This document shows, piece by piece, positions 32,735 to 62,698 of a stretch of DNA of 64,000 bases. Numbering within the stretch: the stretch's first letter is position 1; each line of letters starts with the position of its first letter. Source of the stretch: an uncultured Lachnospiraceae bacterium (GTDB lineage: Bacteria > Bacillota > Clostridia > Lachnospirales > Lachnospiraceae); contig CANQMR010000010.1 in the NCBI GenBank assembly GCA_947625015.1, positions 1 through 64,000 of the forward strand, given 5' to 3'. The notes under the pieces were generated by a model. It was not told the origin of the DNA, made no database searches, and saw only the letters and a list, made by a program, of their open reading frames with translations. The position numbers and the translations under genes were made by a program.

Positions 32735-33372
32735 GAAACCGCTCCCTCCACAATCCTTCCCTCCGACATATAAATCTTCTCGTCCGCAAGATAATCCATT
32801 TCCTCCTTATCGTGACAGGCAATAATGATAATCCGGTTCTCATCTGCAAGGTTACGAATTGCCTGTCCGATTACTTCGACTCCGTCAGCATCAATCGCAT
32901 TAATGGGCTCATCCAATAAAATAATATCCGGCCCGCCCATAATAGCTGCTGCAATTCCCAGTCTCTGCCGCATTCCCAGCGAATATTTATAGAATCTTCT
33001 TTTATCCTCCCAATCCAAGCCTACTTGTTCCAGCGTATCCCTTATCTCCTGTTCGCTGACACTGCGCTGCAAATCAGCTAACATTTTCAGATTTTCATAA
33101 CCGGTGTAGTCATTCAGAAACACCGGATTTTCAATCAGTATGCCAATGCTGTCCGGGAATGACATATCCTTGCCAAGCACCCTGTCATTTATGCGTATGG
33201 TGCCGCCGGTAGGATAGATCAGGCCTGCTATCAGCCGCATAAGCATGGTTTTTCCGCAACCGTTTTTTCCACTCAGTCCGTAAATGCGTCCTCCGGTAAA
33301 GGTGTAATTAATATCATCTAACACCGTAACTCCTTTTATGGTCTTTTTTAGCTGTTCTATCTGAATCTTCAT
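32731..33372 (-). CDS. ABC transporter ATPase, module 2
   Basis: 213 residues, a single nucleotide-binding domain. Walker A GKNGCGKTML, signature YSLGMRQRLGIA (the SLGM variant of BcrA/NatA-like ABC-2 systems instead of LSGGQ), Walker B IILLDEPINAID, switch His in IACHDKEE. About half of its residues match the ATPase at 36521 by eye. Partners are the permeases on both sides. Likely role: drive export of, or immunity to, a peptide or lipid-type substrate. Confidence 0.93.
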   Translation of the reverse strand: MKIQIEQLKKTIKGVTVLDDINYTFTGGRIYGLSGKNGCGKTMLMRLIAGLIYPTGGTIRINDRVLGKDMSFPDSIGILIENPVFLNDYTGYENLKMLADLQRSVSEQEIRDTLEQVGLDWEDKRRFYKYSLGMRQRLGIAAAIMGGPDIILLDEPINAIDADGVEVIGQAIRNLADENRIIIIACHDKEEMDYLADEKIYMSEGRIVEGAVS

Positions 33373-33376
33373 CTCA

Positions 33377-34249
33377 TCACCTCTGTTTCAACATATCTCT
33401 TTTATGGTTCGCCACGCAATAGACCAAGGTTAAAATCAGTACCGTTGCCGCTGTGGCCAGCGACATAGCAGAGCACCGGTTCATTCCCGTCAGTTGGGCC
33501 GGATTGATAATGTCACTGATATTATAGGAGCGAAACGAAGGCAGCAAGCTGTCCATTCCGTAATAAAGACAGCAGGCAAACAGCATGGGAAAAGCAATAA
33601 CGGAAAAAATATTGTCGAAGCAATGGGTTACCGCCAATGAAATACACGCAAAAAGTCCCCCATACATAAAATCAACCGCCATATATGCCATGGCATACAG
33701 GACCGGCTGCTCAAAAAACAGGGACGCCCACATATCCTTATTGGATATGACTGCCTGCATCGATAAAGGGTCTGTGCCGATTACCGGAACATAGCAGGCC
33801 GTTAGAATAAAGTTTAAAAATAACGGCACAAATACTACAGTGCCGCCACTGATAAATGCGCCTGCCGCTTTAGCCAGAAAATATTTTTTTCTGGAACATC
33901 TGGATATCATCTGGGCCGCATAGCCGTCTCCCCACTCCTGATAAAGACTGCCGCCATAGGGCAATGCCGCTAACAGGGGAAACAACAGGTAAAATAACTG
34001 GTTGCAGGGCGAATAGATTTCACTGCCCATCCATGCCTGCAAAATTCCCGTTTCAAACCATGTTCCATATAAAGTATCCTCATACCCCGCATTGATTACC
34101 TGGGCATATTCTTCGTTGTTTGGCAGGTACACATTTTTATAAAACCATGCCATCTGAAACAACCCTATGGACATACCAACACACAAGGCAATGAAAAACC
34201 CCTTTGTCCGCATGGATTTTTTAATCTCATTTCTCAATAGCTGTTTCAT
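33377..34249 (-). CDS. ABC-2-type permease, module 2 (first)
   Basis: 290 residues with about six membrane helices. N-terminus MKQLLRNEIKKSMRTKGFFIA, a cytoplasmic helix before TM1, and a long extracellular first loop (YLPNNEEYAQVINAGYED). It matches the 269-residue permease at 37156 in layout and in motifs such as LFYLLFPLLAALPYG (LYYLIFPIMAALPFA there). It overlaps the preceding small anchored-protein gene by 23 bp. Confidence 0.87.
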   Translation of the reverse strand: MKQLLRNEIKKSMRTKGFFIALCVGMSIGLFQMAWFYKNVYLPNNEEYAQVINAGYEDTLYGTWFETGILQAWMGSEIYSPCNQLFYLLFPLLAALPYGGSLYQEWGDGYAAQMISRCSRKKYFLAKAAGAFISGGTVVFVPLFLNFILTACYVPVIGTDPLSMQAVISNKDMWASLFFEQPVLYAMAYMAVDFMYGGLFACISLAVTHCFDNIFSVIAFPMLFACCLYYGMDSLLPSFRSYNISDIINPAQLTGMNRCSAMSLATAATVLILTLVYCVANHKRDMLKQR

Positions 34250-34817
34250 CTTTGTCCTCCGCTATATCAACATCTGTTATCAGCATTTCATTTTTTTCCG
34301 GATACATTCCCAGAACCGTTTTGTAAACGGTCTTCCCTTCTTCTACCTCCTGCCACTGGCTTTCCAGAAGGTTTTCCCTGTACAGTTCATAGGGGACCAG
34401 CATAGTATCGCCTGAATGAAAGGTTCCATCAAAAAGGGAAGGATTCATTGCCTGCAGCATAAATATATCAATCCCGTTAAACAAATGATAATATTGCAGC
34501 GGAATGTAGGTTTCCAGCGACCCGTCCTCCTCCACTCTGCTCACTTTATACTCCACTACCAGTAATTTTCTCTGATTCTTTCCGACATTATCCTCCGCAT
34601 AGCCTTCCAGTTCGCTGTGTGCCTTAAAAAAATCTGCATATTCCCATAAGACAGCGTCTACAATCTGGTATTCTATACCCTTATATACTGCGCCCTCTCC
34701 CTGAGTAACCTGATTTACAACAGGACGCCTTGCATGTCCTGTCACATAGATAATCCTCACCAAAACAAGAACGGCGCAGATTAAGGTACATATCATCAGC
34801 AAAATCGGTTTTTTCAT
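34227..34817 (-). CDS. Anchored extracellular protein, module 2 (shorter type)
   Basis: 196 residues with one N-terminal membrane segment (about 5-25) and an extracytoplasmic beta-rich domain. Segments GEGAVYKGIEYQIVDAVLW and LLVVEYKVSRVEEDG resemble DUF4352/DUF5028-like extracellular sandwiches. It is the counterpart of the 203-residue protein at 37958 (EPGETMQFNGIEIATEEARLY there). Likely an accessory subunit that captures or shields a ligand at the outer face of the transporter. Exact role unknown. Confidence 0.7.
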   Translation of the reverse strand: MKKPILLMICTLICAVLVLVRIIYVTGHARRPVVNQVTQGEGAVYKGIEYQIVDAVLWEYADFFKAHSELEGYAEDNVGKNQRKLLVVEYKVSRVEEDGSLETYIPLQYYHLFNGIDIFMLQAMNPSLFDGTFHSGDTMLVPYELYRENLLESQWQEVEEGKTVYKTVLGMYPEKNEMLITDVDIAEDKDETAIEK

Positions 34818-34837
34818 CCGTTTTTTCCTCCATACAC

Positions 34838-35677
34838 CTATTCCACATCCAGCTTAATAAATTTGTGAAGTTTATCCTCATATATATTATAAGTCTCATT
34901 CATAATCATAGCTGTCCCCGGTAATACCAGATACCATTCCCCCTCATACAATTCCGTAGGCTTTACCTCAACGCTTTCCTCCTCTCCTTTATTTCCCTTC
35001 CACGCCGTACACTCATAGGCTATTTGCAGGGAAATCTTTTCTCCGGGCTGTAAAATAGGATTGCATGTATTTTTTTCGTCCACAGGATCAGGAATGGCCG
35101 CAACATAAAAATCATGATTACTCCACATACCGCTCACTACTCCTCTGCCCTCCTCTTCATGCCAGCCTTTTGTGTCGTCATAATTATATCCCCGCTCATT
35201 TACATAAGCACAGTCCATATTAAGTGGATAAAATTGCTGTTTTACCGGTTTTTCATTTGTCACCTCATATTCAATGTAAATAATCTCCGCCTGATTTAAC
35301 TCCTCTTTTTTCCACTCTTCCATATTGTTTACATCGTACTCAAAATATTCTTCAACAAACCATTTACTGTCCCTAAATTCCTCAAAAGTATCAAATTTCT
35401 TAACAAACTTCACCTCATAACCAAAACCGCCAAAGGATTGGTAACCATCCTCCATAGTGTAAATATTTTTCTCCTCTGCCGCCTCCTTATCCTTTTGAAG
35501 CTGGGCAAAGTATTCCTGTTCATTGGGTTCATAGACCTCTGTTTCCCCTGTGTCAGCAGTGCTCTCCTGTGAGTCTGCCTGTTGCGTGTCTGTTCTCTGA
35601 TTTTTCTTGTACAGCCCTGCTAAAAATATGACTGCGGCAATTGCCAAAATACTTATAAAATACAATAGTTTTTTCAT
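34838..35677 (-). CDS. Anchored extracellular protein, module 2 (longer type)
   Basis: 279 residues: a membrane segment at about 4-22, an acidic Thr/Glu/Gln-rich spacer (about 30-70), then a beta-rich domain (AEIIYIEYEVTNEKPVKQQFYPLN). First gene of the second module; it corresponds to the 261-residue protein at 38574, which has the same plan of anchor, acidic spacer and sandwich. It overlaps the upstream permease gene by 4 bp, so the two modules form one transcript. Confidence 0.7.
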   Translation of the reverse strand: MKKLLYFISILAIAAVIFLAGLYKKNQRTDTQQADSQESTADTGETEVYEPNEQEYFAQLQKDKEAAEEKNIYTMEDGYQSFGGFGYEVKFVKKFDTFEEFRDSKWFVEEYFEYDVNNMEEWKKEELNQAEIIYIEYEVTNEKPVKQQFYPLNMDCAYVNERGYNYDDTKGWHEEEGRGVVSGMWSNHDFYVAAIPDPVDEKNTCNPILQPGEKISLQIAYECTAWKGNKGEEESVEVKPTELYEGEWYLVLPGTAMIMNETYNIYEDKLHKFIKLDVE

Positions 35678-36531
35678 AATCCATCCACCTTTCCCAAAAA
35701 ATCAACCCTCTTAAATTGTCGGATACCTATGATTAAAAATATTACAATCAATACACTATCTATTAAAATAGCAATGACCGGCGATATTCCTTCCGGTGAA
35801 ATCCGATCATTTCTAAGCCACATGGTATAATTTCCAAGCCATAAATAAGATGTAGAGTAAACCGATACCACCAACATGGCATTGACTAACATAAAACTTA
35901 CAACCGGCGTTTTCCAAAAAGCAACAACCCCTTGTATAACCGTAATTGCAATTGTTGTTAAAACCGGTAGAATGACAATAACGACTATCAAATCCGTTGT
36001 TGTATAGTTGAGCAGCTCCGGCGACAAATTGTTCCAAATTTCTTCCGTCAGTTTCCAGCTAAGCAGGCGGTGTTTGCAAATAATATATCCGGCAATCGTA
36101 CCATAGACCAACAGATAGCACCACGCCACTGACAGAATCTGCCACAAAATCTTAGCCAGCCACCAGCTTACCCTGTCCTTTCCATATAAGATGCTCATCC
36201 TGCCATATTGAACAAAGTCTTCATACGGATAAAAACCCACTATATACGCAACAAATGCATGAAAGGCAAGCCAATAAATCGGTAACACAAAAACAGAACT
36301 AGCCGATAATTCATACACATAATCTCCCTGAAAAAAGTAGGCCAGATAATCAAGAAATGTTCCATATTTTTCACAATATCCATACTCAATCAATGTTTGG
36401 ATATATTTATCTGCCTGTAATATCACCAGAAGCGTAATAGCTATAAGCAGTAAAGATTTCGGCAGCTCGCGCCAGCCTCCCTGATTGATATCATAACTAA
36501 AATATTTTCCTATTTTTGTCTTATCTGTCAT
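35674..36531 (-). CDS. ABC-2-type permease, module 1 (last)
   Basis: 285 residues with six predicted helices; starts MTDKTKIGKYFSYDINQGGW. It overlaps the ATPase gene by 11 bp and is followed by the first gene of module 2 with a 4-bp overlap. Matches the 283-residue permease of module 2 in size and topology, including the RMSILYGKDRVSWWLAKILW loop (MYMIVQSKKRSYWWISKCIW there). Confidence 0.85.
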   Translation of the reverse strand: MTDKTKIGKYFSYDINQGGWRELPKSLLLIAITLLVILQADKYIQTLIEYGYCEKYGTFLDYLAYFFQGDYVYELSASSVFVLPIYWLAFHAFVAYIVGFYPYEDFVQYGRMSILYGKDRVSWWLAKILWQILSVAWCYLLVYGTIAGYIICKHRLLSWKLTEEIWNNLSPELLNYTTTDLIVVIVILPVLTTIAITVIQGVVAFWKTPVVSFMLVNAMLVVSVYSTSYLWLGNYTMWLRNDRISPEGISPVIAILIDSVLIVIFLIIGIRQFKRVDFLGKVDGL

Positions 36532-37156
36532 TTACAATTCTCCCCTCCTGAATGTGTATAATGACATCAGACAAATAATCCAGTTCTTCCCTATCGTGAC
36601 AGGCTACAAGAATAATCCGGTCTTCATTCCGCAGCTCCAGCAGCAACTCTTTAATCCTTTCAACCGTATATTCATCTAACGCATTAATTGGTTCATCCAA
36701 TATAATCAATTGTGGCTTTCCCATAACTGCCGCTGCAATCCCCAATTTCTGTTTCATTCCAAGGGAAAATCTGCCAAAAGGCTTACTCTCCTGCGCATTT
36801 AATCCAACCCTTTCCAATATGCTTCTTATATCCTCTTCCGGTATTCCTCCGGAAAGATTTGCCAATACCTTAAGATTATCCATAGCTGAATATTCCTGAA
36901 TAAATGAGGGGTTTTCAATTAACGCTCCCACACTTTGCGGAAAGTCAATATCCTTCCCGATCTTCTTCCCGTCAATCGCAACATATCCGGCGGTAGGTCG
37001 AATCAATCCGGTAATGGCACGCATAAGCATGGTTTTCCCAGAGCCATTTTTCCCTCGTAATCCATATATTTTTCCCCCCGTCAGAGTCAGATTAATTTGA
37101 TCTAATACAGTGACCTTCCGGATTATTTTCGTATAATCCTTTATCACAAGTTCCAT
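36521..37156 (-). CDS. ABC transporter ATPase, module 1
   Basis: 211 residues. Walker A GKNGSGKTML, signature FSLGMKQKLGIA, Walker B LIILDEPINALDE and His in VACHDREE. Closely similar to the module 2 ATPase over its whole length, so the pair most likely arose by tandem duplication. It lies between its two permease genes with 1-bp and 11-bp overlaps. Confidence 0.93.
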   Translation of the reverse strand: MELVIKDYTKIIRKVTVLDQINLTLTGGKIYGLRGKNGSGKTMLMRAITGLIRPTAGYVAIDGKKIGKDIDFPQSVGALIENPSFIQEYSAMDNLKVLANLSGGIPEEDIRSILERVGLNAQESKPFGRFSLGMKQKLGIAAAVMGKPQLIILDEPINALDEYTVERIKELLLELRNEDRIILVACHDREELDYLSDVIIHIQEGRIVNDR

Positions 37157-37965
37157 TACAACACATCCTTTCGTGTCAACACACCAACAAATAAAGCAAA
37201 AGAAAATATTACCGTCACTATCAGTTTCATAAAAATCTCCCAGCCATTCAGCAATAAATCTGTCATTTCAGCAATGTTGGAAAACGCCCAGTTTACACAA
37301 TCAAATTGGTACAATATTGTTCGCTCTAATATGCAAAACACAAATCCAAATACATAGATAGAATACTTCATTTTTGCGATAAGGGAAAAGCAGAGCGCTA
37401 TGCCGGCTATGCAGCCTCCAACCAGAAAATCAATCCCCCAGAAAATGACCGCATAGAAGAAAGGATGCTCATAAAAAATATTACAATAAGGTTGACCGTC
37501 CAAGGGAACTGCCTGTAAACTTAATTCGCTAGGCGGATATCCCGGCACAAATCCTGCGTGAAGAAAAAGGCTGAACATTAAAGGAAGCACTGTTACCAAT
37601 CCCCCTGTCACAAACGCAACTAAATATTTTGCAGCCGCATATGCGTTTCGTTTCACCTTCATAAACAGCACCTTCTGATAGCCGCTTTGTTTATCTTCAT
37701 AATAGGACGCAGCAAACGGCAATGCTGCCATAATCGGAAAAATCAAATAGTACAGACTGCGATAAAACAATTGTATATCTCTTCCCAAATACGATAGCCA
37801 GCATACTATCGGATAGTCACTATTTTCATAAAAGTTTTTCACAATGCCGCCCATTTCATAATGGACAGCCTGCAAAACGGAGCACAACATACCTGCTCCC
37901 AACACAAACCATATTCTCTTTGACCGCATGGCCCTATTCCATTCAAAATGTAACACCTCAATCAT
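37156..37965 (-). CDS. ABC-2-type permease, module 1 (first)
   Basis: 269 residues with about six membrane helices. MIEVLHFEWNRAMRSKRIWF gives a basic cytoplasmic start, with LYYLIFPIMAALPFAASYYED in the middle. Overlaps the anchored-protein gene upstream by 8 bp and the ATPase downstream by 1 bp. Counterpart of the permease at 33377. Confidence 0.87.
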   Translation of the reverse strand: MIEVLHFEWNRAMRSKRIWFVLGAGMLCSVLQAVHYEMGGIVKNFYENSDYPIVCWLSYLGRDIQLFYRSLYYLIFPIMAALPFAASYYEDKQSGYQKVLFMKVKRNAYAAAKYLVAFVTGGLVTVLPLMFSLFLHAGFVPGYPPSELSLQAVPLDGQPYCNIFYEHPFFYAVIFWGIDFLVGGCIAGIALCFSLIAKMKYSIYVFGFVFCILERTILYQFDCVNWAFSNIAEMTDLLLNGWEIFMKLIVTVIFSFALFVGVLTRKDVL

Positions 37966-38569
37966 CGGTAACTGTCTCCTCTATTTTAAAGTTTAATTCA
38001 TTTGCGCAGTAGCCCTCCTGATAACTTCCAAGACAAAGAGTATAGCCGTAATCCGTTAGATGCTGCCATGTATTATCCGTTATTGCAATATGATTTATAT
38101 CTGTTACAAAAGTCAAATCTATCTCTTCTCCCGGTTGTAAATTTCCTGTATGAACTGCCCTGTTGAAAATCGGATTAATATCTTGTGAAATAAGTGGATT
38201 AAAAGCAGAAATCCAGCGATGTTCCATACGGACATACGCTCCAAACAGCTCTTTTAGAGCATACTCCTGTTCAGAAATATTTTTAATGTGAAATGTGTAA
38301 GCCAGAACTTTCGTTCCATTCATCAGCCGAAGAGTTTCATCATCATAATCTGCCGCATATTGCTGTCCATACTGATTCAGGAACTCAGCCACATCATATA
38401 ATCTTGCCTCCTCTGTAGCAATCTCTATCCCGTTAAATTGCATAGTCTCGCCCGGTTCATATTTATGTATCTCATATGCATACTGTTTTTGATTGCGCAC
38501 TATTTTCAAGCTCCAAAACACACAGAAAATTACGAAAAAACATACAAACCATTTTTTCAGAACTTTCAT
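37958..38569 (-). CDS. Anchored extracellular protein, module 1 (shorter type)
   Basis: 203 residues: one membrane segment (about 6-24) then a beta-rich extracytoplasmic domain with ETMQFNGIEIATEEARLYDV and VLAYTFHIKNISEQEYALKE, the pattern of DUF4352/DUF5028-like proteins. Spaced 4 bp from the preceding gene. Equivalent to the 196-residue protein of module 2. Confidence 0.7.
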   Translation of the reverse strand: MKVLKKWFVCFFVIFCVFWSLKIVRNQKQYAYEIHKYEPGETMQFNGIEIATEEARLYDVAEFLNQYGQQYAADYDDETLRLMNGTKVLAYTFHIKNISEQEYALKELFGAYVRMEHRWISAFNPLISQDINPIFNRAVHTGNLQPGEEIDLTFVTDINHIAITDNTWQHLTDYGYTLCLGSYQEGYCANELNFKIEETVTDD

Positions 38570-52748: not shown

Positions 52749-53090
52749 TCAATGCTTCGCCCGTACTTTTTCCCATTCCTCATACCGGGCGGCATACTGC
52801 GCATTTAACCATTCCACAAGCTGCTCCTTTCCCGCCTCGTCAAAGGGAAAGGTCTCTACAGTCTTTTGCTCCTCAGGCGTTGCGTCAAAGCTATAAGGCT
52901 CCGGCCAGATTATCACCTGAAACAGCGCATCCCCCTTTTTATCCGACGGCTTTAACGCCACATCTTCCATAGGAGCCCTCGCAATGCGGAAACGCATTCC
53001 TCTGTGGCTTCCATAATATGGTATTCCATGTTCATACCACGAAATGCCGTAAGACGCCTTATTTTCAATGGGAATTATCTTCTCCTCCAT
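52749..53090 (-). CDS. Small soluble protein, end of the unknown-function operon
   Basis: 113 residues from MEEKIIPIENK (53090), with AGGAGG 6 bases upstream. No membrane segment. Opens with a beta-rich stretch (SYGISWYEHGIPYYG, MRFRIARAPMEDVAL) and ends with an Arg/Glu-rich helix (LNAQYAARYEEWEKVRAKH). No family recognised. The start lies just after the stop of the coiled-coil membrane protein gene, so it is probably the last gene of the operon. Confidence 0.75.
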   Translation of the reverse strand: MEEKIIPIENKASYGISWYEHGIPYYGSHRGMRFRIARAPMEDVALKPSDKKGDALFQVIIWPEPYSFDATPEEQKTVETFPFDEAGKEQLVEWLNAQYAARYEEWEKVRAKH

Positions 53091-53100
53091 GTCTGTCCTC

Positions 53101-54276
53101 CTAATGTACATTAATATGATAAAGCTCCAGCGTTTTCCTCACCTGGCTGCGTAGCTCCGGATTGGTCTTTAACAGTTCCTTAATCTCTTTTAATCCATTT
53201 AAGCGCATTTTATCATTATAGGCAATCTGTTCCCTTAGCTTCTGCCTGCGCACATTCAGGGAATGTTTGACCTCCACCATCTCCCGGCTGTCAATCAGCG
53301 CTAAAGACTGCTTGGCCCAGATATCCGGGTCCTTCACCCCGTTGGAAAACAGCAGCTTGGAAAGAGCGTCTGAAAACTCCCGCAAATCCCCGGAGGTCTT
53401 CTGGAATTTTCTCACCTCGTCTACCATAATCAAATACTGGTCGTAGAGATATTCCAACTCCCGCAGGCTTTTCACATGATATTTATCATACAGATAATCC
53501 AGCATGGCGGTATTGTTAATATACTTAATCTTTACCTTATTCATCAGGTTAATGGCCCGGTTCTCCTTCTTCTCCGATACCTTAAATTCATAGGAAAGAT
53601 TCTTAAAGGTCACGACGCACAAAGCCGCCATCAACGCCACCACCAGCAGAATCATTAAAACCGGAATTACCATTGCCGTCTTCGTCAGCATCCCGACGAC
53701 AACCAAAGTAACTACCAAAAGCAGCGATATTGTTCCAAAGCCAATCGTGAACATCCGAAGTCTGGCCTGCCGCTCCTCAATGGATTCCTGAAGATATTCC
53801 TGGGTATTTTTCTCTCCCTCTAAATGCTTCATATCCCGCTTAATCTTCATATCCATATCCTCTAAATCCTTAAGCTGCCCGAAAATCTTTGTCAAATCCT
53901 TCTCCATTCCCTGTATCATGCGGAAATTTTCATCACTAATCCGGTCGTCGGAATGCAGGAAAGCAGAAGTCTCATTTTCCAGAAAAGCAATCTTTTTGGC
54001 AATGTCCGCAATCTCCTTTCGCACATTGTCCGGCAGGGCTTCAATGGTCTGGATATCCTTAAAATAAGAAGTCACCAGTTCATATTCCACCCGCAGATCC
54101 TCCATCAGATAGGTGGTCTCTACAATCTGGTCGCACTTAAAGGCAATATCCTCCTCCGGCCCCTTGGCCTTTGCCGCCTGTCTGGACAAAAAGGTATCAA
54201 TGCTCTCATATTCAAAGGTTTCCTCCGTAACCTCTTCCTTTGTAAACAAATCTTTTACCGAACTCAGTAATCCCAT
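53101..54276 (-). CDS. Coiled-coil protein with two central membrane segments
   Basis: 391 residues. A cytoplasmic N-terminal half with long helices (about 95-165, charged heptads such as GMEKDLTKIFGQLKDLEDMD), two close membrane segments (about 176-198 and 203-225) and a C-terminal helical half (about 235-391). Both long arms should face the cytoplasm. No known family. Gene order and the tight spacing tie it to the TPR-like protein and the Hsp70/actin-like ATPase; it probably anchors the complex to the membrane. Confidence 0.8.
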   Translation of the reverse strand: MGLLSSVKDLFTKEEVTEETFEYESIDTFLSRQAAKAKGPEEDIAFKCDQIVETTYLMEDLRVEYELVTSYFKDIQTIEALPDNVRKEIADIAKKIAFLENETSAFLHSDDRISDENFRMIQGMEKDLTKIFGQLKDLEDMDMKIKRDMKHLEGEKNTQEYLQESIEERQARLRMFTIGFGTISLLLVVTLVVVGMLTKTAMVIPVLMILLVVALMAALCVVTFKNLSYEFKVSEKKENRAINLMNKVKIKYINNTAMLDYLYDKYHVKSLRELEYLYDQYLIMVDEVRKFQKTSGDLREFSDALSKLLFSNGVKDPDIWAKQSLALIDSREMVEVKHSLNVRRQKLREQIAYNDKMRLNGLKEIKELLKTNPELRSQVRKTLELYHINVH

Positions 54277-54324
54277 TTATACCGCTCCCTGTTATATCCG
54301 TAATTGTAAACCATCTGCGCTAAA

Positions 54325-55158
54325 TCACACAGACTGTTCGCGAAATTCTGTCTTTAAATGTTCAATCACCGTATCCATACGCTTGCTGAAATCTGTCAGA
54401 TTATTTTTCTCATAGTGGAATATGGCCTTCTCCATTCTATGATAGATCGGCGAGCCTACGACATCCTCTTCGGTATCCTGCAAGGCGTCATAGATGGAAT
54501 CTACCATCTCCTCTGCCCCGTAAAGCCGGGCCGTCTCTTCCACTTCCCGCCGCTCCTTCATCGTCGCCATCAGCAACAGGTATTCATAGATGGACCGGGT
54601 ATTCCTCGCAAGCTCAAAGGCTTTCAGGTAAGACGCCATGGCTTCCTCTAACTCAAAGTTATGGGCTAACGCCACCGCCCGGTTATGATAGATTGTTCCT
54701 TTTTGCTGCGGATTGTTTATGTCCGGATACTGTTCTAATATCTCATCATATATGGCCGCCGCCTTAATATATTTACGGTACCGAAGGAAACCGTCCGCCT
54801 GCAGCTTACGGAACTGGGGCGGCGTCAAACCTTTCATCCGCTCTAACTGAAATATAAATTCCTTAATCTCCGCTATCGTATAAAATTCCTTATAAGTCAG
54901 GATTGTCGTCAGCAAATCGGTTAAGTCCGCCTGTTTTTTCTCCTTGATCGCCCGGAGTTTATCGGCAAGCTCCGGCAGATGCAGCCCATCCTCAATCCAG
55001 TTAAACATGAGCGTACCGATATATTCCCCGGCAACCAAAGCGATATTATTGTAGATATAATAACAAAGCTCCTCATAGGAAAAAACTTCGATTCTGGTAT
55101 TGGGAAAAATATATGAAGTTTCCGCCGGCTGCGTTTCGCACAAGATCACTCTGCCCAT
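54325..55158 (-). CDS. TPR-like helical protein
   Basis: 277 residues, soluble. A first domain (MGRVILCETQPAETSYIFPN) of about 110 residues is followed by tetratricopeptide-like helices at about 118-215: GFLRYRKYIKAAAIYDEILEQYP, then TIYHNRAVALAHNFELEEAM with A-x-x-Y-x-x-A spacing. A likely protein-protein adaptor. Between the ATPase (33-bp gap) and the membrane protein (48-bp gap). Function unknown. Confidence 0.8.
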   Translation of the reverse strand: MGRVILCETQPAETSYIFPNTRIEVFSYEELCYYIYNNIALVAGEYIGTLMFNWIEDGLHLPELADKLRAIKEKKQADLTDLLTTILTYKEFYTIAEIKEFIFQLERMKGLTPPQFRKLQADGFLRYRKYIKAAAIYDEILEQYPDINNPQQKGTIYHNRAVALAHNFELEEAMASYLKAFELARNTRSIYEYLLLMATMKERREVEETARLYGAEEMVDSIYDALQDTEEDVVGSPIYHRMEKAIFHYEKNNLTDFSKRMDTVIEHLKTEFREQSV

Positions 55159-55190
55159 AGCATATCCTTTCTCTCATCTTTTATCACAAT

Positions 55191-56456
55191 TCATAGCCCT
55201 TCGCTTATGGAAAATTCTTTCCGGTAAATCTTATTGGTGGTGGGATAGATTCTTCCAAATCCCATATCCCGGATCACAATCGCCCCCGTACGCTCGTCTA
55301 AAAGCTCCACCTCCAAAGAGAGCTTTGTGGTCTTCGGCGGCCGTCTGGGAAGGCCATGAATCTCAATAATCTCCTTTTGCATATCCTTTGTAATCTTATC
55401 CCTGTACATCAGATTGATTCGGTTGGTATCGTCCAAAAATACAGTTACCCTGCCCTTCATATTATACCACTCCCTGCCGCCTAAAGCGATGGGATAAAAG
55501 GTATTCTTTCCCTCCATATCCCCAATATTCACGCCAATATCAAAGGGAATGGCCGACTCGGTACACAGCACGCAGTCCTTATCCTTTTCATAGGCGCCGT
55601 AACGGGCATGATAACAGGCTCCCTTGGTGTAGATGTTCTGCCCCATAAATACCCGTCTGCCGTCGCACAGCACATTGGCCGCCTCCTCAATCCATTTATC
55701 GTTAAAGCCGGGGCCGGTCAAATACACAGTGGAAATGTATGTCTCCCTCATCTTTCCTTTGGCAATCCCCGCAAAATAATGGTCTAACTCCTCCACATCC
55801 TCAAAAAGCCGGGCGTAGGGCATCTCCTTTGTCAGGTCATTGCGGCCTAATTGAAAAATACGCATATTGCCCTGCTGCTTTTTATCTATGCGGTAATATT
55901 CCATTCCGTCATGGCCATACTCAAACATGGCCACGCTGTTTGTGTGGAGCCGTTCATCCTGATTCATGACATACTGAAAAAATGCATTCTCATGGCTCAT
56001 GATGTAAAAAGCGTCCTTCGGAAGGGAAAGCTCCCGCCGCAATTTTTCCAGCACATGATACAACTTGGGGTGGTATTTCTCCATGGTAACCGTAAGCCCT
56101 TTTAACTGATATTCCTCTGAGCGCGACAGAAAATCCCCGATGTGCGTTTTCAGCAAAATAAGCAGCAGCTCTTCATAGGTATAAGCCGTTCCGTCAACTG
56201 ATACCGTTTCCCCGGAATCAATGTTGACGGCCACATCCTCCACCATGGTTCCCATCTCCTGAAAACGAATGGAACTGACATTATTGCCCACATACCATTT
56301 CTTCCCTTCCTCGGAATAAAACATGACGTTGGGAAGTTGATAGGTTTCCGTATTATTCAGTTGATACACCGATTCCGGTTCCTTCTTGTCCTCCCGGAAA
56401 TAGCTTAACTGCACATTCTTCCTGCACAGATCAAGCCCTAAATAAATCTCTTTCAT
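55191..56456 (-). CDS. Hsp70/actin-superfamily-like ATPase (DUF5716-like)
   Basis: 421 residues. The start KEIYLGLDLCRKNVQLSYF is a phosphate-1 loop of the actin/Hsp70/FtsA superfamily; NSVAMFEYGHDGMEYYRI sits where phosphate 2 (DxGGGT) belongs but is degenerate; STVYLTGPGFNDKW and FMGQNIYTKGACYHARYG fit the adenosine motif and the following helix. The C-terminal 90 residues are beta-rich (TKLSLEVELLDERTGAIVI), like a substrate-binding sandwich. I recall this as DUF5716, found beside DUF5717. ATP binding is plausible, hydrolysis less sure. Confidence 0.8.
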   Translation of the reverse strand: MKEIYLGLDLCRKNVQLSYFREDKKEPESVYQLNNTETYQLPNVMFYSEEGKKWYVGNNVSSIRFQEMGTMVEDVAVNIDSGETVSVDGTAYTYEELLLILLKTHIGDFLSRSEEYQLKGLTVTMEKYHPKLYHVLEKLRRELSLPKDAFYIMSHENAFFQYVMNQDERLHTNSVAMFEYGHDGMEYYRIDKKQQGNMRIFQLGRNDLTKEMPYARLFEDVEELDHYFAGIAKGKMRETYISTVYLTGPGFNDKWIEEAANVLCDGRRVFMGQNIYTKGACYHARYGAYEKDKDCVLCTESAIPFDIGVNIGDMEGKNTFYPIALGGREWYNMKGRVTVFLDDTNRINLMYRDKITKDMQKEIIEIHGLPRRPPKTTKLSLEVELLDERTGAIVIRDMGFGRIYPTTNKIYRKEFSISEGL

Positions 56457-56497
56457 CTCTATCCCTTCATTATCTGCGCCCTGCTAAAAAACAGGCG

Positions 56498-59400
56498 TCA
56501 ATCCAGCAGCTCCAGATTTTCCTCCACAACCGCGGACAGCTTCAAATATTTGTCAATCTTATCAATCAGTGTCTGATGTTCTCCAATCTCCTGATTCACC
56601 ACCATGGAATTGAGCATCTCAAACCGGTTCTCATAGGTATCCATCTCCCCTTTGGCCTTCATGCCCTCGCTCTCATAAATCCGGGTATGCCCCGCATACT
56701 CCTCCGGCATCTCATAAAGCAGGTTCTCTCCATGAAACAATACAAACTCCTTCATATAATATCCCGGCAGGATTTCCATCATTCTTGCCTCTTTATTACA
56801 TTCCGGCTTGTCCACACCGGACTGGATACCGTATTGAAACTTAATCACCTTTCCCGCCTTATCCTTTGTCACCACATAGGTCATCAGGAACAAATCCTTC
56901 GGCAGTCTGGCATACCGCTTGAATTTCCGGAAAAAGGGAAGTAAAATCCCCCGTTTCACAAAATATTCCAACTGCTTTTTCAGCCATTTTACCTCATCTT
57001 CCTCTAAATTCGTCCGGCGGCTTAAGGACAGCAGCATTGCCGCAAGGCACATATCGTCCTCTAACTGTCCAAGCTGCATCTGCTGATACAGGGAACGAAA
57101 ATAGGTATCCGGCAGATCCTTATCCTCCACCAGATAGGCAAAGGCGGCCCGTTTGAAAAAGGCTTTTACCACCATGCCGCCCCGCTTTTTCTCCACAAAA
57201 GAGGTAAAGACCGGAAACACTTCGTTGTCCCACTGCTCGGTATAAAGAGTCTGGCAGATAATATTCTCCTCCAAAAGTTCCAGCCTTGCCAGCCTGCTGT
57301 CAGCCCGTTTCCACAGCTTAAGCATATCCTTGACGCTGCTCTGGTAAGCGTCCACCAGATAAGACAAAACCTGCGGGGACTCCTGTCCAAGACGGTAGAG
57401 ATAACAGGCAATGGAAATCAGCGTCTCGTCATTTTCATAATCCGGAACGGTTCTGACCTTCTCCACCAGCTCTGTCAGCCTCTCCGCCGAAACGCCCTGA
57501 TACCCAAACCGTTTCACTGCTTCAAAGGCGGTATCGTAAAGGCCGCACGCCAAAAGATCACTCATGTATTCCACTCCGTCATGGGAGGCGACAAACTGCA
57601 TATCCATCCTGTCTAAATAGCTGCGCATAATATCCATGTCCTGATGCTCATGATAATACCGGACAATGCCAAAAATTGCCTGCTGCCTGGTCTCCTCGCT
57701 AATCTCCGGGAAAGTCAGGATATCCCTGGCTATGTTGACCTCTCTCGCTGTAGCCGTATCATATGCTTTCCATGCATCATAACGGTAAAGCACATAGCGG
57801 TAATCATCCGCCGCATACTGCCCCAAAATATCCATATATTCCGCCTCGTCCACCAGCTTTTGCAGCTTATAGGGAATGGTGCTGATGAAGCGGTTCTGCT
57901 GACGGTCCACCAAAGAAATCACAGCGGACTCCGTAATCATATCCACATAAGCTGCATGGTTTCTCACCGGCACTACCGTCTCTTTATCCAGCTCTTTATG
58001 GGAAACCACTACGGCAATGATATCGTCGTTGGCAACCGTTAATTTGCGCTTAAAAATAATCTTGACTAACTCCGGGGCAAACTGGGCCGTCACCGCCTGC
58101 GGGCGCAAAAATTCGGAATAGAGAATACTTAAGTCGTCGCTGACATTGCCCTTGATAATCTGGCCCTGCATAAAAGCCTCCATATTGGGCAGATATTCCT
58201 CATACTGTCCCAAATACTGCCGCCGGTTCACAATCACGTTGGCATAGAGGTAAGCATACTCGCTGTCGGACAGAAAGCTCTTATAATTAAAGTAACGGAG
58301 CACAGAATCCGGTATCAAATCATAGCGGCTGTGGTCCATGCTGCGGAGATAATTCTCCTGTATTCCCACCAGCTTATAACCGCATTTAATGCCCTCCAGA
58401 TAATACGGATGGTAACGATGCTCTAACCTCCCTCCCTTAATCAGGAGGCTGCACATAATCCGCACAATATCCGGCTTATGGTCCCTTTCATAAAGGATAT
58501 CCAACAGCGAAAATACCTTGGGGTTAAAATTCTTTTCTCTGGCCGCAAGCTGAAGAAATTCCTCCTCCGCCTCCTTGCCGAGATAATCGTTCCTAAGGCC
58601 AAACCGCAAAGCCGCAAGCTCCGTCTTTGAAAGCTTTTTCAAAAGCAACGGTTCCTCGCTAATGATATCGCAGGCCTCTAAAGCCAGTATCGGACTTTCA
58701 TATCCGCCTACATATAATCCCTCAATCTGGGATAACATAAATCCCCGGTCTGTCTGATACCGCTCGTCCAAATAGATTAACAGCCAGAAATAGAATAGTT
58801 TATCACTTTCCCTCTCTAAGGCCGCCTCGATTGTCTGACAGGCCAGCGAAATCTGCTCCGGCTCCTTAGATAACATTGCCTTTAAATACAGATAATAGCA
58901 GTGTTCCTTTGCCCCCCGCATGGCTTTATCCATATCCGCCTCCATCCGGCGGATCTCCTGTATGGCGTTATCCTCCCTGCCGGCCAAGATATTCATATGC
59001 AAAAGCCCTAACTTATATAGCCCGGTCTCCGGCTCTAACTCAATCAGGCTGTGAAGGGAGACTCTGCTCTGTTCCACAAACTGATGAAGGGGCAGTTTGC
59101 TGGTGCGGTAATCCAGATAATTATGTATCAACGCGGCTGTTTCCAGCTTCTTCATTCGCCGGTTGTGGTCCCTGTGAACCAATATCCGGGAGGGTTCCTC
59201 CGGCTTGCATATACTAATGGCAACTTCAATCTTCTGATAGGTATTCTCTAAGATAATGTGGCCGTTGGCTCCCTGATGTTCATCTAACTGCTCCGGGTCC
59301 AAAGAATAGGAAAGGGTGCACACATCTCCCTCATAATCCATGCTGCGAAGTTCGGATTGGTGCAGGATAATAAATCTGGAATCCGCCTTTACCTGCATCC

Positions 59401-60070
59401 GGCAGTACCCCCATGTATTTTTCAAAAATACCAGCTCATGCTCCTCCCGCATCTTAGGAAACGGGAACTGGAATCTGTCGTGCTGCACCTGTAAGGTAAG
59501 CGCACGTTTCTTATGAATGTAGACCAGAAATTCTTCCAACGCCTGATTCTTGTCTACGGAATCCTTAAGGGTCTGGTAAGCCGCCAGATAATGGGGCTGA
59601 TCCTTGAGGAGAGTGCGGGCAAATTCGCCGGAATAAAAAATCTGCAAAGCCCTGTCCCAGTCCTCCTCCGCCAGCGCGGAAAATTTCATCAGGTCCTCTA
59701 ACGCCGTTCCGTTTACGGCGATAAAGGGAGCGACAATCTCAATGCTGTAGGGAATCTTCTGCTCTAAGCCATTGCCGATTAAATATATATTGCCGTCAAA
59801 GGTGCTGCCCTTTTTTCTTCTGGCCGCATCAAAAGTAAACCGGATTGTCCCTTTTCTGCCAATCAGGCTGTGGTCTTCAAAGCGCAGTAAATAAGCGTCG
59901 TCATATACCATCATCTTAAAGGGAATATCGTTATCTGAGTAAAGCTCTATGCTTCCGGTATAGACGCTGCCCGCCTCTATCTTTAATTGCAAAAAGGTCT
60001 TTGAAACCCTCACCTTGGGATATTCCACATAGAAATCACCCTTGGCATACTGTTCAATCTTACTTTTCAT
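56498..60070 (-). CDS. Giant scaffold protein, beta-sandwich plus helical repeats (DUF5717-like)
   Basis: 1190 residues with no signal peptide or membrane segment. Residues about 1-115 and 195-300 look like Ig-type beta-sandwiches (KIEAGSVYTGSIELYSDNDI; RMQVKADSRFIILHQSEL). About 310-900 is an all-helical solenoid of TPR-like pairs. A second beta-rich region near 1070-1140 (FQYGIQSGVDKPE) precedes the end. I recall the family as DUF5717. It heads the operon behind a candidate promoter at 60137-60164. The architecture suggests a cytoplasmic scaffold working with the ATPase encoded next. Function unknown. Confidence 0.82.
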   Translation of the reverse strand: MKSKIEQYAKGDFYVEYPKVRVSKTFLQLKIEAGSVYTGSIELYSDNDIPFKMMVYDDAYLLRFEDHSLIGRKGTIRFTFDAARRKKGSTFDGNIYLIGNGLEQKIPYSIEIVAPFIAVNGTALEDLMKFSALAEEDWDRALQIFYSGEFARTLLKDQPHYLAAYQTLKDSVDKNQALEEFLVYIHKKRALTLQVQHDRFQFPFPKMREEHELVFLKNTWGYCRMQVKADSRFIILHQSELRSMDYEGDVCTLSYSLDPEQLDEHQGANGHIILENTYQKIEVAISICKPEEPSRILVHRDHNRRMKKLETAALIHNYLDYRTSKLPLHQFVEQSRVSLHSLIELEPETGLYKLGLLHMNILAGREDNAIQEIRRMEADMDKAMRGAKEHCYYLYLKAMLSKEPEQISLACQTIEAALERESDKLFYFWLLIYLDERYQTDRGFMLSQIEGLYVGGYESPILALEACDIISEEPLLLKKLSKTELAALRFGLRNDYLGKEAEEEFLQLAAREKNFNPKVFSLLDILYERDHKPDIVRIMCSLLIKGGRLEHRYHPYYLEGIKCGYKLVGIQENYLRSMDHSRYDLIPDSVLRYFNYKSFLSDSEYAYLYANVIVNRRQYLGQYEEYLPNMEAFMQGQIIKGNVSDDLSILYSEFLRPQAVTAQFAPELVKIIFKRKLTVANDDIIAVVVSHKELDKETVVPVRNHAAYVDMITESAVISLVDRQQNRFISTIPYKLQKLVDEAEYMDILGQYAADDYRYVLYRYDAWKAYDTATAREVNIARDILTFPEISEETRQQAIFGIVRYYHEHQDMDIMRSYLDRMDMQFVASHDGVEYMSDLLACGLYDTAFEAVKRFGYQGVSAERLTELVEKVRTVPDYENDETLISIACYLYRLGQESPQVLSYLVDAYQSSVKDMLKLWKRADSRLARLELLEENIICQTLYTEQWDNEVFPVFTSFVEKKRGGMVVKAFFKRAAFAYLVEDKDLPDTYFRSLYQQMQLGQLEDDMCLAAMLLSLSRRTNLEEDEVKWLKKQLEYFVKRGILLPFFRKFKRYARLPKDLFLMTYVVTKDKAGKVIKFQYGIQSGVDKPECNKEARMMEILPGYYMKEFVLFHGENLLYEMPEEYAGHTRIYESEGMKAKGEMDTYENRFEMLNSMVVNQEIGEHQTLIDKIDKYLKLSAVVEENLELLD

Positions 60071-60136
60071 TGGTATTTACTCCGAAGTCTTGATGTTTTA
60101 CAATTCAGATTGTATAATTAAGCATATATTGAATAG

Positions 60137-60164
60137 ATTATAACAAATTTTACGGCAGATTAAA
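60137..60164 (-). promoter_or_regulatory. Candidate promoter of the unknown-function operon
   Basis: TTTAAT (60159-60164), a 16-bp spacer and TATAAT (60137-60142) on the minus strand, about 70 bp before the 1190-residue gene, in the divergent gap with the aminotransferase gene. Confidence 0.5.
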
Positions 60165-60191
60165 AGATAAAATGGAAAGAAGGTATATTTT

Positions 60192-61277
60192 ATGAATAAT
60201 AACACATTTCATGGCAGTGATTTGGAAACCATTGCGGAAAAATATCATCTGGATTCTTCTACAATCATTCCCTATGCTTCTAATGTGAACCCTCTTGGTA
60301 TGTCACCTATGGCAAAGGAGGCGCTTGCCGAACACATCGAGGCAATTCAATCCTACCCGGACAGGGATTACACAAATCTTCGCGCCACCATTGCCAAATA
60401 CTGCGGCGTAGAGCCGGATATGCTGGTGCTTGGCAACGGCACCTCGGAATTAATCCGCACAGTGACGGCCGCCATTGCCCCCACGAAAACCATGGTACTT
60501 GGCCCCTGCTACTCGGAGTACGCCAATGCCGCCCGGATGGCAGGCAGTGAAGTAGTGACATATATGCTGAAAAATCCGGAGGATTTTGAGATTGATGTGG
60601 ATATGTTTTTAAAGGCATTAAATGATTCCATTGAACTTTTGATTATCTGCAACCCCAACAATCCCACCAGCAAGATTATCACCAAAGAGCAGATGAATAC
60701 CATATTGACCTGCTGCCAGCAGCATGACATCTTCGTCATGGTGGATGAGACTTATGTGGAATTTGTAAGGGACGTCAACTTGGTATCCTCCGTTTCCCTT
60801 ACTCGGAAATTTGATAACTTAATTGTTCTCCGGGGCGTATCGAAATTCTTCGCCGTACCGGGACTCAGGCTGGGATATGCCGTTACCAACAACGAGGATT
60901 TCCTAAACGCCGCTTCCGACAACAAGGTGCCCTGGAACATTAACGCCTTTGCTTCCATTGCCTCTGTCATGTTTGAGGACGAACACTATATCAACCTTAC
61001 CAAAAGCCTGATTCAGACAGAGCGGAACTTAATCTTTTCCGCCCTTTCCAGCCGGAAGACAATCAAGGTATTCAAACCGGAGGCCAACTTTGTGTTAATC
61101 AAACTGTTAAAGGAAGAACAGACCGCCTCAGAAGTCTTTGAATACTGCCTGAAGCGGGGCTTTATGATACGGGATTGTACGGATTATGAAGGATTAGGGG
61201 ATAAATACGTCCGCTTCTGCTTTATGAAACCGGAGCAGAACGACAACATGGTAAACACAATCTTAGAGATTGTGTAA
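60192..61277 (+). CDS. HisC/CobD-like class I/II aminotransferase
   Basis: 361 residues of the fold I PLP enzymes. Substrate arm ASNVNPLGMSP, phosphate-binding GNGTSELI, CNPNNPTS, DETYVEF, PLP Lys218 in LRGVSKFFAVPGLRLGY and the final Arg in YVRFCFMK. Closest to histidinol-phosphate aminotransferase and threonine-phosphate decarboxylase (CobD). No his or cob genes are nearby, so the substrate is open. AGAAGG precedes the ATG. Confidence 0.9.
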   Translation: MNNNTFHGSDLETIAEKYHLDSSTIIPYASNVNPLGMSPMAKEALAEHIEAIQSYPDRDYTNLRATIAKYCGVEPDMLVLGNGTSELIRTVTAAIAPTKTMVLGPCYSEYANAARMAGSEVVTYMLKNPEDFEIDVDMFLKALNDSIELLIICNPNNPTSKIITKEQMNTILTCCQQHDIFVMVDETYVEFVRDVNLVSSVSLTRKFDNLIVLRGVSKFFAVPGLRLGYAVTNNEDFLNAASDNKVPWNINAFASIASVMFEDEHYINLTKSLIQTERNLIFSALSSRKTIKVFKPEANFVLIKLLKEEQTASEVFEYCLKRGFMIRDCTDYEGLGDKYVRFCFMKPEQNDNMVNTILEIV

Positions 61278-61333: not shown

Positions 61334-62698
61334 ATGGCAAAGCACAAGCATCCAGATGAGGCTACTAAGCGCAACACCCGATTTATCGTAGTGGTTTCCC
61401 TGATTTGTATTCTCTTAATCCTGCTGCTGTCTATTCTGTTTCCCTCTTCCACAGGCAGTCAGACAGAACCGGCAACAGAGGCGACGACAGAGGAAATTTC
61501 CACCAGCACAGACCCTAAGACTGGCTTTACAAAAGTGGCGGGAAAGGTCTACCGTTTTGAGGAGGACGGGACCTGCCACACAGGCTGGTACCGGATTAAC
61601 GACGACGTCTACTGCTTTAATAAAGACGGCGTTTTGGTTACCGGCTGGTATATTGCCAACGGACATACGTATTATTTTAATGAGGACGGTATTTTACAGA
61701 CTAACCAATGGATTGAAGACCGGTATGTAGGGGAACAGGGATACATATTAAAAAATACCGTTACGCCGGACGGCAAATATGTAGATGCAAACGGCGTCCG
61801 CAACGACAAGGTGAGCCTTGCCACCAGCCGGGAAGGCCTTACGGAGCTAAAGGGCAATCTTGAAGATATGATTGAGCATTACTCCGGATCCTGGTCTGTT
61901 TATGTCAAAGACATTAACCGCAATGAATATTTGTCCATTAATAATATTCAATATTTTTCCGCCAGCATGATTAAACTTTTTTGCGCTGCGGCTGCCTATG
62001 ACTTAATTGAGCAGGGGACCTTAGAGGAGGATGAAACCGTAACCCGCCTCATGCGGGAAATGATATCCGTAAGTGATAACGACGCCTTTAACCTGATGGT
62101 CATGAAATGCGCACCGGATGGCAGCCACATTACCGGCAGGGGCATTATTCAGGAATATATCAATGAAAACGGCTACAACAATACCACTATAACTTCTATT
62201 CTGGTGCCCACCAAATACAAGGCCCCTTCCTCCCCCGGACGGAATTATACCAGTGTGATAGACTGCGGATTACTGTTAGAGCGGATATACAAAGGACAGT
62301 GCGTCAGTCCGGAGGCTTCCGGGAAATTCCTAAATCTGCTGCTTGACCAGACCCATGTCAACAAAATTCCGGCAGGACTGCCGGAGGGAACAAAGTGCGC
62401 CAATAAGACCGGAGACACAGATGAGGTACAGCATGACGCCGCTATTGTATATTCCCCCAATGGCGTATATATTCTGTGCGTGATGAGCAGCGGATGCGGT
62501 TCGGCTATTTCCAATATCCAAACCATATCCAAAACAGTGTATGAATATTTCAATCCCGAAGAACAGGGGACAGGACAGATAGAAATACAAGGGACGGAGC
62601 AGGGGGCAGGACAAATAGAAATACAGCGGGCAGAGCAGGAGACAGAACAGACAGAGACACAGGAAACAAAACAGATAAAAATACAGAAAGCGGATTAA
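61334..62698 (+). CDS. Wall-binding serine hydrolase, class A beta-lactamase fold
   Basis: 454 residues. A membrane segment at about 16-36, a Thr/Glu spacer, three aromatic wall-binding repeats (about 66-130: GKVYRFEEDGTCHTGWY, DVYCFNKDGVLVTGWY, HTYYFNEDGILQTNQW), then a beta-lactamase-like domain with Ser211-x-x-Lys214, Ser247-Asp-Asn249 and Lys358-Thr-Gly360. The tail is a low-complexity Glu/Gln/Thr repeat (QIEIQ/EQ units). Catalytic triad elements are intact, but the Glu166-type residue of lactamases was not located, so a peptidase or esterase role is as likely as beta-lactamase. AAGGAGG is 17 bases before the ATG, unusually far. Confidence 0.88.
   Translation: MAKHKHPDEATKRNTRFIVVVSLICILLILLLSILFPSSTGSQTEPATEATTEEISTSTDPKTGFTKVAGKVYRFEEDGTCHTGWYRINDDVYCFNKDGVLVTGWYIANGHTYYFNEDGILQTNQWIEDRYVGEQGYILKNTVTPDGKYVDANGVRNDKVSLATSREGLTELKGNLEDMIEHYSGSWSVYVKDINRNEYLSINNIQYFSASMIKLFCAAAAYDLIEQGTLEEDETVTRLMREMISVSDNDAFNLMVMKCAPDGSHITGRGIIQEYINENGYNNTTITSILVPTKYKAPSSPGRNYTSVIDCGLLLERIYKGQCVSPEASGKFLNLLLDQTHVNKIPAGLPEGTKCANKTGDTDEVQHDAAIVYSPNGVYILCVMSSGCGSAISNIQTISKTVYEYFNPEEQGTGQIEIQGTEQGAGQIEIQRAEQETEQTETQETKQIKIQKAD

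Follow-up and report, generated by a model that had tools for sequence, protein, structure and literature searches.

A degenerate, lidless Hsp70 encoded beside a giant scaffold in Lachnospiraceae and its kinship with a larger multi-Hsp70 operon of sister families

Introduction

Hsp110/Sse1 exchange factors are ATP-binding proteins whose peptide-binding domain is extended. In the yeast ribosome-associated complex, Ssz1, for which no ATP hydrolysis is reported, binds ATP, forms a pair with the J-protein Zuo1 at the ribosome and passes nascent chains on to an active Hsp70, according to the available part of the source (PMC7083937). For the GAP1-N2 GTPase-centric systems, Kaur et al. (2020, PMC7159879) describe an HSP70, GrpE, a second, reduced Hsp70 and an FNIII protein to which TPR or DnaJ is joined.

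The DUF5716 protein described here shares with Ssz1 the Hsp70 fold, the complete SBD-beta and the absence of a lid; judged from the sequence, DUF5716 has lost the catalytic residues. Ssz1 is among the best structural matches of the DUF5716 model, tied with other Hsp70s. However, DUF5716 lacks the middle lobe, it arose within a bacterial order according to its tree, and the genes beside it encode a giant scaffold, a TPR protein and, at many loci, a membrane protein. The window operon also lacks a J-protein; no DnaJ/J-domain Pfam match was found among the operon proteins of the window and of a sister-family locus, L094. Compared with Hsp110/Sse1, DUF5716 is shorter and, again, has no middle lobe.

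Lachnospiraceae rank with the most common bacteria of the gut. The window, the whole stretch of 64,000 nucleotides analysed here, comes from an uncultured member of this family, and the original prediction placed in it a five-gene operon whose products looked like a membrane-tethered, ATP-dependent cytoplasmic machine. No published role for the gene set was found in literature searches.

Results

Gene organization and distribution

All five predicted ORFs are present on the minus strand in head-to-tail order (Table 1), with gaps of 41, 32 and 48 bases between genes 1–2, 2–3 and 3–4, and the proposed names DUF5716 and DUF5717 proved right, with Pfam matches above the cut-off. The small ORF overlaps the coiled-coil gene by 11 bases when its first ATG is taken as the start, and shortens to 113 residues if started from the in-frame ATG at 53090. 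Because it adjoins the coiled-coil gene (within 133 bases) at only 6 of the 16 loci where it occurs, other ORFs lying between the two at the other 10, the small ORF is probably not a member of the gene set, contrary to its proposed place as the fifth partner. The dN/dS values of genes 1–4 are 0.048, 0.073, 0.033 and 0.031, and that of the small ORF is 0.087 (single pair, window versus L125), indicating purifying selection on the operon genes.

The divergent CobD-like gene is a synteny marker found beside both the Lachnospiraceae and the sister-family operon types, and its product probably does not belong to the machine. No minus-strand promoter match was found in the 121-base intergenic region that separates it from the scaffold gene.

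Among the sampled genera, 145 of 150 Lachnospiraceae genomes carry DUF5716_C, 143 of these 145 in a single copy, and it is found in 0 of 295 genomes of the same phylum outside the family. Conservation of the neighbourhood, which the prediction had offered for checking, holds for genes 1–3, which stay together across Lachnospiraceae (80 named loci and 20 chosen diverse loci).

Table 1. Coordinates of the operon, its neighbour and the features of the encoded proteins in the window
Feature	Positions	Strand	Basis
Scaffold gene, DUF5717, 1190 aa	56498..60070	-	Pfam, AlphaFold model, structure comparison of first 290 residues, profile match
PapD-like beta-sandwich 1, residues 18-116	59723..60019	-	
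PapD-like beta-sandwich 2, residues 190-292	59195..59503	-	
Helical solenoid, residues 302-1050, beta insert 674-738	56921..59167	-	DSSP of model
DUF5716 gene, degenerate lidless Hsp70, 421 aa	55191..56456	-	Pfam, tree, profile, model, catalytic-residue check
Remnant of phosphate-1 loop, residues 5-18 (LGLDLC...), with the aspartate but without TTN	56403..56444	-	
SBD-beta peptide-binding domain, residues 305-416, eight strands in model, no lid	55209..55544	-	Model, weak profile stretch, DnaK alignment
TPR-like adaptor gene, 277 aa	54325..55158	-	Pfam, relatives' loci
Coiled-coil protein gene, 391 aa, hydrophobic stretch in middle	53101..54276	-	Hydropathy, relatives' loci
Central hydrophobic stretch of coiled-coil protein, about residues 175-225	53602..53754	-	Hydropathy scan
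Small ORF, 120 aa	52749..53111	-	Open reading frames
Divergent intergenic region, 121 bases, scaffold gene / CobD-like gene	60071..60191	.	Presumed promoter region
CobD-like aminotransferase, divergent neighbour	60192..61277	+	Relatives' loci, both operon types

Scaffold, TPR-like and coiled-coil proteins

The scaffold matches DUF5717_N with 819 bits and the DUF5717 C-terminal model with 197.1 bits (cut-off 25). Its AlphaFold model (pLDDT 86.0, pTM 0.57) bears out the predicted beta-sandwiches and helical solenoid, with two PapD-like beta-sandwiches in front of a long solenoid, which carries a beta insert, and with a beta domain plus helices towards the C terminus. Furthermore, the scaffold profile matches the split scaffold of the sister families with an E-value of 3.6e-55.

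The TPR-like protein is matched by TPR Pfam models below the cut-off only, and in five other genera it forms a single open frame with DUF5716. Neither the coiled-coil protein nor the small ORF has a Pfam match above the cut-off. The two membrane helices predicted in the middle of the coiled-coil protein agree with nine other homologs listed, which show two or three hydropathy peaks, but the window protein itself shows a single peak (residues 203–221); the homologs are the ground for interpreting the stretch as two membrane helices. Because the coiled-coil gene is present at only 42 of the 80 named loci and 4 of the 20 chosen diverse loci, a membrane tether is no general feature of the gene set.

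DUF5716 is a degenerate Hsp70

The 421-residue protein matches DUF5716_C with 306.2 bits (cut-off 34.7) and has no HSP70 Pfam match above the cut-off. Its model (pLDDT 88.9) matches Hsp70s across both the nucleotide-binding and the peptide-binding domains, with two-domain DnaK aligning over model residues 3–421. A profile search of solved structures also leads to DnaK, the SBD-beta stretch of this match being weak, and in the tree DUF5716 is nested among Hsp70 paralogs. The actin/Hsp70 fold originally proposed is thus supported by structure prediction, profile and tree, and DUF5716 is a degenerate Hsp70 by descent, with an actin-like nucleotide-binding domain and an SBD-beta. As for the alpha-helical lid (SBD-alpha), the model contains no helix of at least 4 residues after residue 286, and the protein ends right after SBD-beta.

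Eight Hsp70 catalytic residues (D8, T11, T12, K70, E171, D194, T199 and D201) were checked in 39 DUF5716 sequences. The complete set is kept in 0/39, as are, taken singly, the T199 and K70 positions, whereas the phosphate-1 aspartate is kept in 33/39 and the adenosine-site glycine in 39/39. The middle lobe between phosphate-2 and the adenosine site, corresponding to subdomain IIB of DnaK, which is the GrpE contact there, is gone in all 39. Against a DUF5716 mean of 1.93 bits per column, phosphate-1 (2.53), the adenosine motif (2.63) and residues 262–284 (2.90) are conserved above average, phosphate-2 (1.82) and the K70 region (1.69) below it, and the DxGFG end of the peptide-binding domain, at 3.02, is among the best conserved parts. 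With three regions above the mean and an invariant glycine, the nucleotide site shows a conservation pattern other than plain decay, and DUF5716 may thus still bind nucleotide, possibly without hydrolysing it.

A larger operon in sister families

Sister families of the same order carry a larger operon consisting of a split DUF5717, four Hsp70-like proteins, one of them with a vWA domain, a GrpE-domain protein and a TPR protein, together with the coiled-coil gene in some cases. Three of these Hsp70s keep all eight catalytic residues (44/44 copies), and the fourth, the DUF5716 ortholog, keeps all eight in 0/15; by these counts, the catalytic residues were already lost in the sister-family ortholog while its three siblings keep them. 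The ortholog in L094 still matches Pfam HSP70 above the cut-off (71.7 bits).

As in DnaK-GrpE systems, HA, HC and HD of the sister operon match Pfam HSP70, and a 642-residue protein ends in a GrpE domain (36.6 bits in L094, and 46.1, 27.1 and 55.3 bits in L086, L100 and L102; cut-off 25.8), which also matches GrpE of PDB entry 4ani (E 8.1e-6). In contrast to DnaK-GrpE, three active Hsp70s and a dead one share a single operon, the copies of L094 end ahead of the lid by profile coverage, one having the vWA domain in that place, and the GrpE domain terminates a long helical protein.

Sequence comparison and trees establish the descent of DUF5716 from one of the four Hsp70-like proteins of this multi-Hsp70 operon. 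They likewise show that, in the Lachnospiraceae form, the operon no longer contains the GrpE-domain gene, the two scaffold genes have been joined and DUF5716 has lost IIB. Searches of 100 Lachnospiraceae genomes, at thresholds taken from the scores of known copies and with no positive control inside them, did not find the three active siblings. At the 80 named loci, to which the GrpE-domain search was confined, neither a GrpE-domain protein nor an active sibling was present. The larger operon therefore explains what the Lachnospiraceae gene set is: a dead, lidless Hsp70 on its scaffold that appears to have outlived its ATPases.

Discussion

The original prediction read the gene set as a cytoplasmic machine that depends on ATP and whose Hsp70-like switch is either slow or nucleotide-locked. 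The Hsp70 fold, the retained phosphate-1 aspartate and the invariant adenosine-site glycine speak for it, and since the phosphate-1 and adenosine regions are conserved above the mean, ATP may still bind and lock the DUF5716 fold. However, because DUF5716 never keeps the catalytic set and the active siblings were not found in the 100 genomes searched, an ATP-driven machine is unsupported in Lachnospiraceae; with the middle lobe gone throughout and no GrpE-domain partner at the named loci, slow cycling is not supported either, and the reading as a whole is improbable. A purely structural complex, in which DUF5716 serves the scaffold as a building block and has lost peptide binding, would suit the missing lid, the DUF5716-TPR gene fusions and the constraint on the whole gene set. 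The strong conservation of DxGFG, which could equally mark a docking surface, argues against it, and we hold this alternative to be rather unlikely.

The sister operon, with its HSP70s, GrpE, degenerate Hsp70, vWA and beta-sandwich/TPR proteins, recalls the second theme of the GAP1-N2 systems as described in the available part of Kaur et al. (PMC7159879), and PADLOC gives a weak match for the vWA-Hsp70 of L094 (PDC-M61B, 26.5 bits). A conflict or defence system of that kind is nevertheless very improbable here: DUF5716 is nearly universal in the family and almost always single copy, the gene trees agree with one another, and PADLOC (2023 release) returned 0 matches for the four window proteins. 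Furthermore, Pfam gave no match to a GTPase or GAP1 component in the operon proteins of the window or of L094, in a library that may not hold such models. As far as that part of the paper goes, GAP1-N2 is a patchy conflict system, compared with a family-wide core set here, and its reduced Hsp70 lacks the peptide-binding domain, whereas DUF5716 keeps that domain and loses catalysis. An actin-like filament protein of the MreB/ParM type would have the superfamily fold in common with DUF5716; the peptide-binding domain and the position among Hsp70 paralogs make it scarcely credible.

The reading that we prefer, with about even chances of being right, is that the window set is a reduced Lachnospiraceae form of an older multi-Hsp70 operon, in which a non-cycling DUF5716 relays clients to a chaperone. 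DUF5716, no longer cycling ATP, would sit on the DUF5717 scaffold together with the TPR protein, and the coiled-coil protein, where present, would tie this complex to the membrane. The lidless peptide-binding domain may hold clients weakly and pass them on to a regular chaperone driven by ATP, which in Lachnospiraceae would most likely be DnaK, by analogy with the hand-over of nascent chains from the non-hydrolysing, lidless Ssz1 to Ssb in yeast. A bolder version is possible but doubtful: a separate Hsp70 machine for relaying clients would have arisen in the order on a giant PapD-like/solenoid scaffold, equipped with three active Hsp70s, a GrpE of its own and a single dead Hsp70. Lachnospiraceae would then have shed the private ATPases and the exchange lobe and kept the dead Hsp70 as the hub of a near-universal, membrane-near adaptor feeding DnaK, an independent bacterial counterpart of Ssz1.

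Its origin in a bigger multi-chaperone machine makes a widespread gene set of no known function testable. With a dead Hsp70 recognised as its core, left behind by an operon of four Hsp70s, two domains of unknown function now pose a concrete question about chaperone action without ATP, and a further one, why nearly every member of the Lachnospiraceae keeps DUF5716. The sister families, in which dead and live Hsp70s stand side by side, offer a natural comparison.

Gene organization and distribution

The gene set comprises five consecutive ORFs (table below), separated in order by 41, 32, and 48 bases, with the last pair overlapping by 11 bases. A CobD-like aminotransferase gene (269.8 bits, below the model cut-off of 290.55) lies upstream in divergent orientation. 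The set is under constraint, with a dN/dS of 0.03–0.07 from one sequence pair. DUF5716 and DUF5717 are catalogued Pfam families, and no functional paper on either of them or on the operon was found in the open-access collection searched.

Features in the window and at two fetched loci
Feature	Location	Strand	Description
Gene set	window 52749–60070	minus	five consecutive ORFs
Gene 1		minus	DUF5717, 1190 aa
Gene 2		minus	DUF5716, 421 aa
Gene 3		minus	TPR-like, 277 aa
Gene 4		minus	helical protein, hydrophobic centre, 391 aa
Gene 5		minus	small protein, 120 or 113 aa
ABC region	window 31883–38569	minus	two ABC-transporter-like gene groups
ATP-binding subunit	window 32731–33372		resembles lantibiotic-protection ABC ATPases, 153.9 bits
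ATP-binding subunit	window 36521–37156		resembles lantibiotic-protection ABC ATPases, 176.3 bits
Two genes from operon	window 61334–62698		beta-lactamase-like domain (PF13354, 121 bits) and choline-binding repeats
Own genome, contig C2	L119:2–3186		562-aa Hsp70 directly behind an ORF TPR-rich by eye
Sister-family HD	L094:12267–14342		Hsp70 with von Willebrand A (vWA) domain in lid position

Elsewhere in the window, both ABC ATPase scores fall below the cut-off of 309.75, and the seven ORFs beside them (196–290 aa) gave no NCBIfam match at E 1e-10.

The DUF5716_C model matches 145 of 150 Lachnospiraceae genomes (one per genus), including 123 of the 126 of good quality; the match is single in 143, while G129 contains two on separate contigs and G137 two pieces on the same contig. 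Within a phylum sample of 299 genomes, matches occur in four, every one from Lachnospiraceae. The DUF5717 scaffold is present in three of the five family genomes without a DUF5716_C match. Around DUF5716, 80 named loci, picked via this gene and including short contigs, contain the scaffold (78), the TPR gene (76), the aminotransferase (70), the coiled-coil gene 4 (42), and the small ORF (16). DUF5716 and the TPR protein share one open frame in 5/145 genomes, judged by frame length (690–727 aa) and confirmed at loci L074–L078. In relatives (L131, L138, and L141–L143), the coiled-coil gene is separated from the small ORF by patatin-like or HAD-like proteins, the calls for L131, L138, and L141 being made by eye from the first residues.

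A larger operon in sister families

In other families of the order, the DUF5717_N model matches 60 of 131 genomes, one of them (G552) below the cut-off, and the scaffold is often split into two proteins of ~400 and ~900 aa. Loci were fetched from 19 of these 60 genomes. The Hsp70 HA (~559 aa) immediately follows the scaffold at 17 of them; one ORF intervenes at L095, and HA is not nearby at L096. Locus L094 encodes a split scaffold, HA, a 642-aa protein with a GrpE domain at its end, three further Hsp70-like proteins (HB, HC, and HD, the last an Hsp70 plus vWA), and a TPR protein. Twelve HD copies (642–725 aa) were collected across sister families, the vWA domain being confirmed by Pfam for the L094 copy. 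A homolog of the window coiled-coil protein exists in 5/12 downstream stretches, immediately behind the TPR match at L108, L110, L111, and L115, and after a 308-aa ORF without a match at L107. The divergent upstream aminotransferase is common to the window and 11/19 sister loci, with one intervening ORF in three of these.

HA was found in all 18 tested scaffold-positive sister genomes (675–1127 bits) and in none of eight scaffold-negative ones, where the top match reached only the DnaK level (175–187 bits). In family f126, the operon parts are often separated, HA being adjacent to the scaffold in 4/14 genomes and elsewhere in 10/14. In the dispersed version (G484, G494, G534, and other f126 genomes), different contigs carry either the two halves of the scaffold or scaffold and HA, and none of these parts has been lost.

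Descent of DUF5716

Judged by profiles and trees, DUF5716 corresponds to HB. The HB of L094 exceeds the cut-offs of both the DUF5716_C and HSP70 models, and the DUF5716 and HB profiles align end to end (E 2.3e-45). In a tree of 55 proteins, with long branches in four rows and unusual residue composition in ten, HA, HC, HD, and DUF5716 form one clade each; DUF5716 and HB form a single clade (100/100), joined to HC (100/100).

G450 (family label f125) is an intermediate form. It contains a split scaffold, HA, HB, HC, a 279-aa GrpE-domain protein (46.1 bits), and HD and TPR each split into two ORFs. Its HB retains the long middle lobe, scores 249.9 bits against DUF5716_C, and is the sister of DUF5716 (100/98). 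The scaffold tree (26 rows, root set on L102 by the analyst) likewise pairs G450 with Lachnospiraceae (100/100). Taken together, these results make loss the best account of how the window form arose.

Catalytic residues and remaining Hsp70s

Eight catalytic residues (D8, T11, T12, K70, E171, D194, T199, and D201) were checked with the DnaK of the window's own genome as the ruler. All eight are retained in the full-length copies of HA (18/18), HC (14/14), and HD (12/12) from fetched loci; the full set is found in 0/15 HB and 0/39 DUF5716. DUF5716 still has the phosphate-1 aspartate in 33/39 and the adenosine-site glycine in 39/39, and both regions are conserved above the protein mean; hence, it could possibly bind a nucleotide. 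Between phosphate-2 and the adenosine site lie 142 residues in DnaK, 116–151 in 14 HB, and 138 in G450, but 59–77 in all 39 DUF5716, which we read as loss of subdomain IIB, a GrpE contact.

With 100 Lachnospiraceae genomes searched for each protein, no match was found for HA or HC at E 1e-100 or for HD at E 1e-140. These thresholds, set from the scores of known copies, should be lenient, since known full-length copies score at least 669 (HC), 675 (HA), and 825 bits (HD). In the window's own genome, the Pfam HSP70 model detects DnaK, a 562-aa second Hsp70, which we take to be HscC-like, and two short matches in 335–357-aa frames, probably MreB-like. The 562-aa protein and its TPR-rich neighbor are possibly a further Hsp70–TPR pairing.

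Proposed role

The window set is without the parts that an Hsp70 requires for its ATP cycle, yet it is retained and constrained. DUF5716 is almost certainly an Hsp70 with a degenerate catalytic site that descends from the larger operon, and it probably acts on the scaffold as an adaptor or structural part that does not cycle ATP. The closest published composition found is the Hsp70–GrpE theme of the GAP1-N2 systems, which differ in their GTPases and patchy, conflict-type distribution (PMC7159879).

Lidless, non-hydrolysing Hsp70s are already known in the case of the well-studied Ssz1. Ssz1 binds ATP without hydrolysis, lacks the lid, keeps the peptide-binding SBD-beta, and hands nascent chains on to Ssb (PMC7083937). 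In the window set, a lidless peptide-binding domain remains on a dead hub, together with the large scaffold, the TPR protein, and, in many cases, a membrane protein. By analogy with Ssz1, DUF5716 may play a role of the same kind, relaying clients to an active chaperone, a handover that we consider about evenly balanced. The receivers in sister families would be HA, HC, and HD, and in Lachnospiraceae the likely receiver would be DnaK; a complete parallel to Ssz1, located close to the membrane and with DnaK as receiver, is a tentative and rather doubtful proposal.
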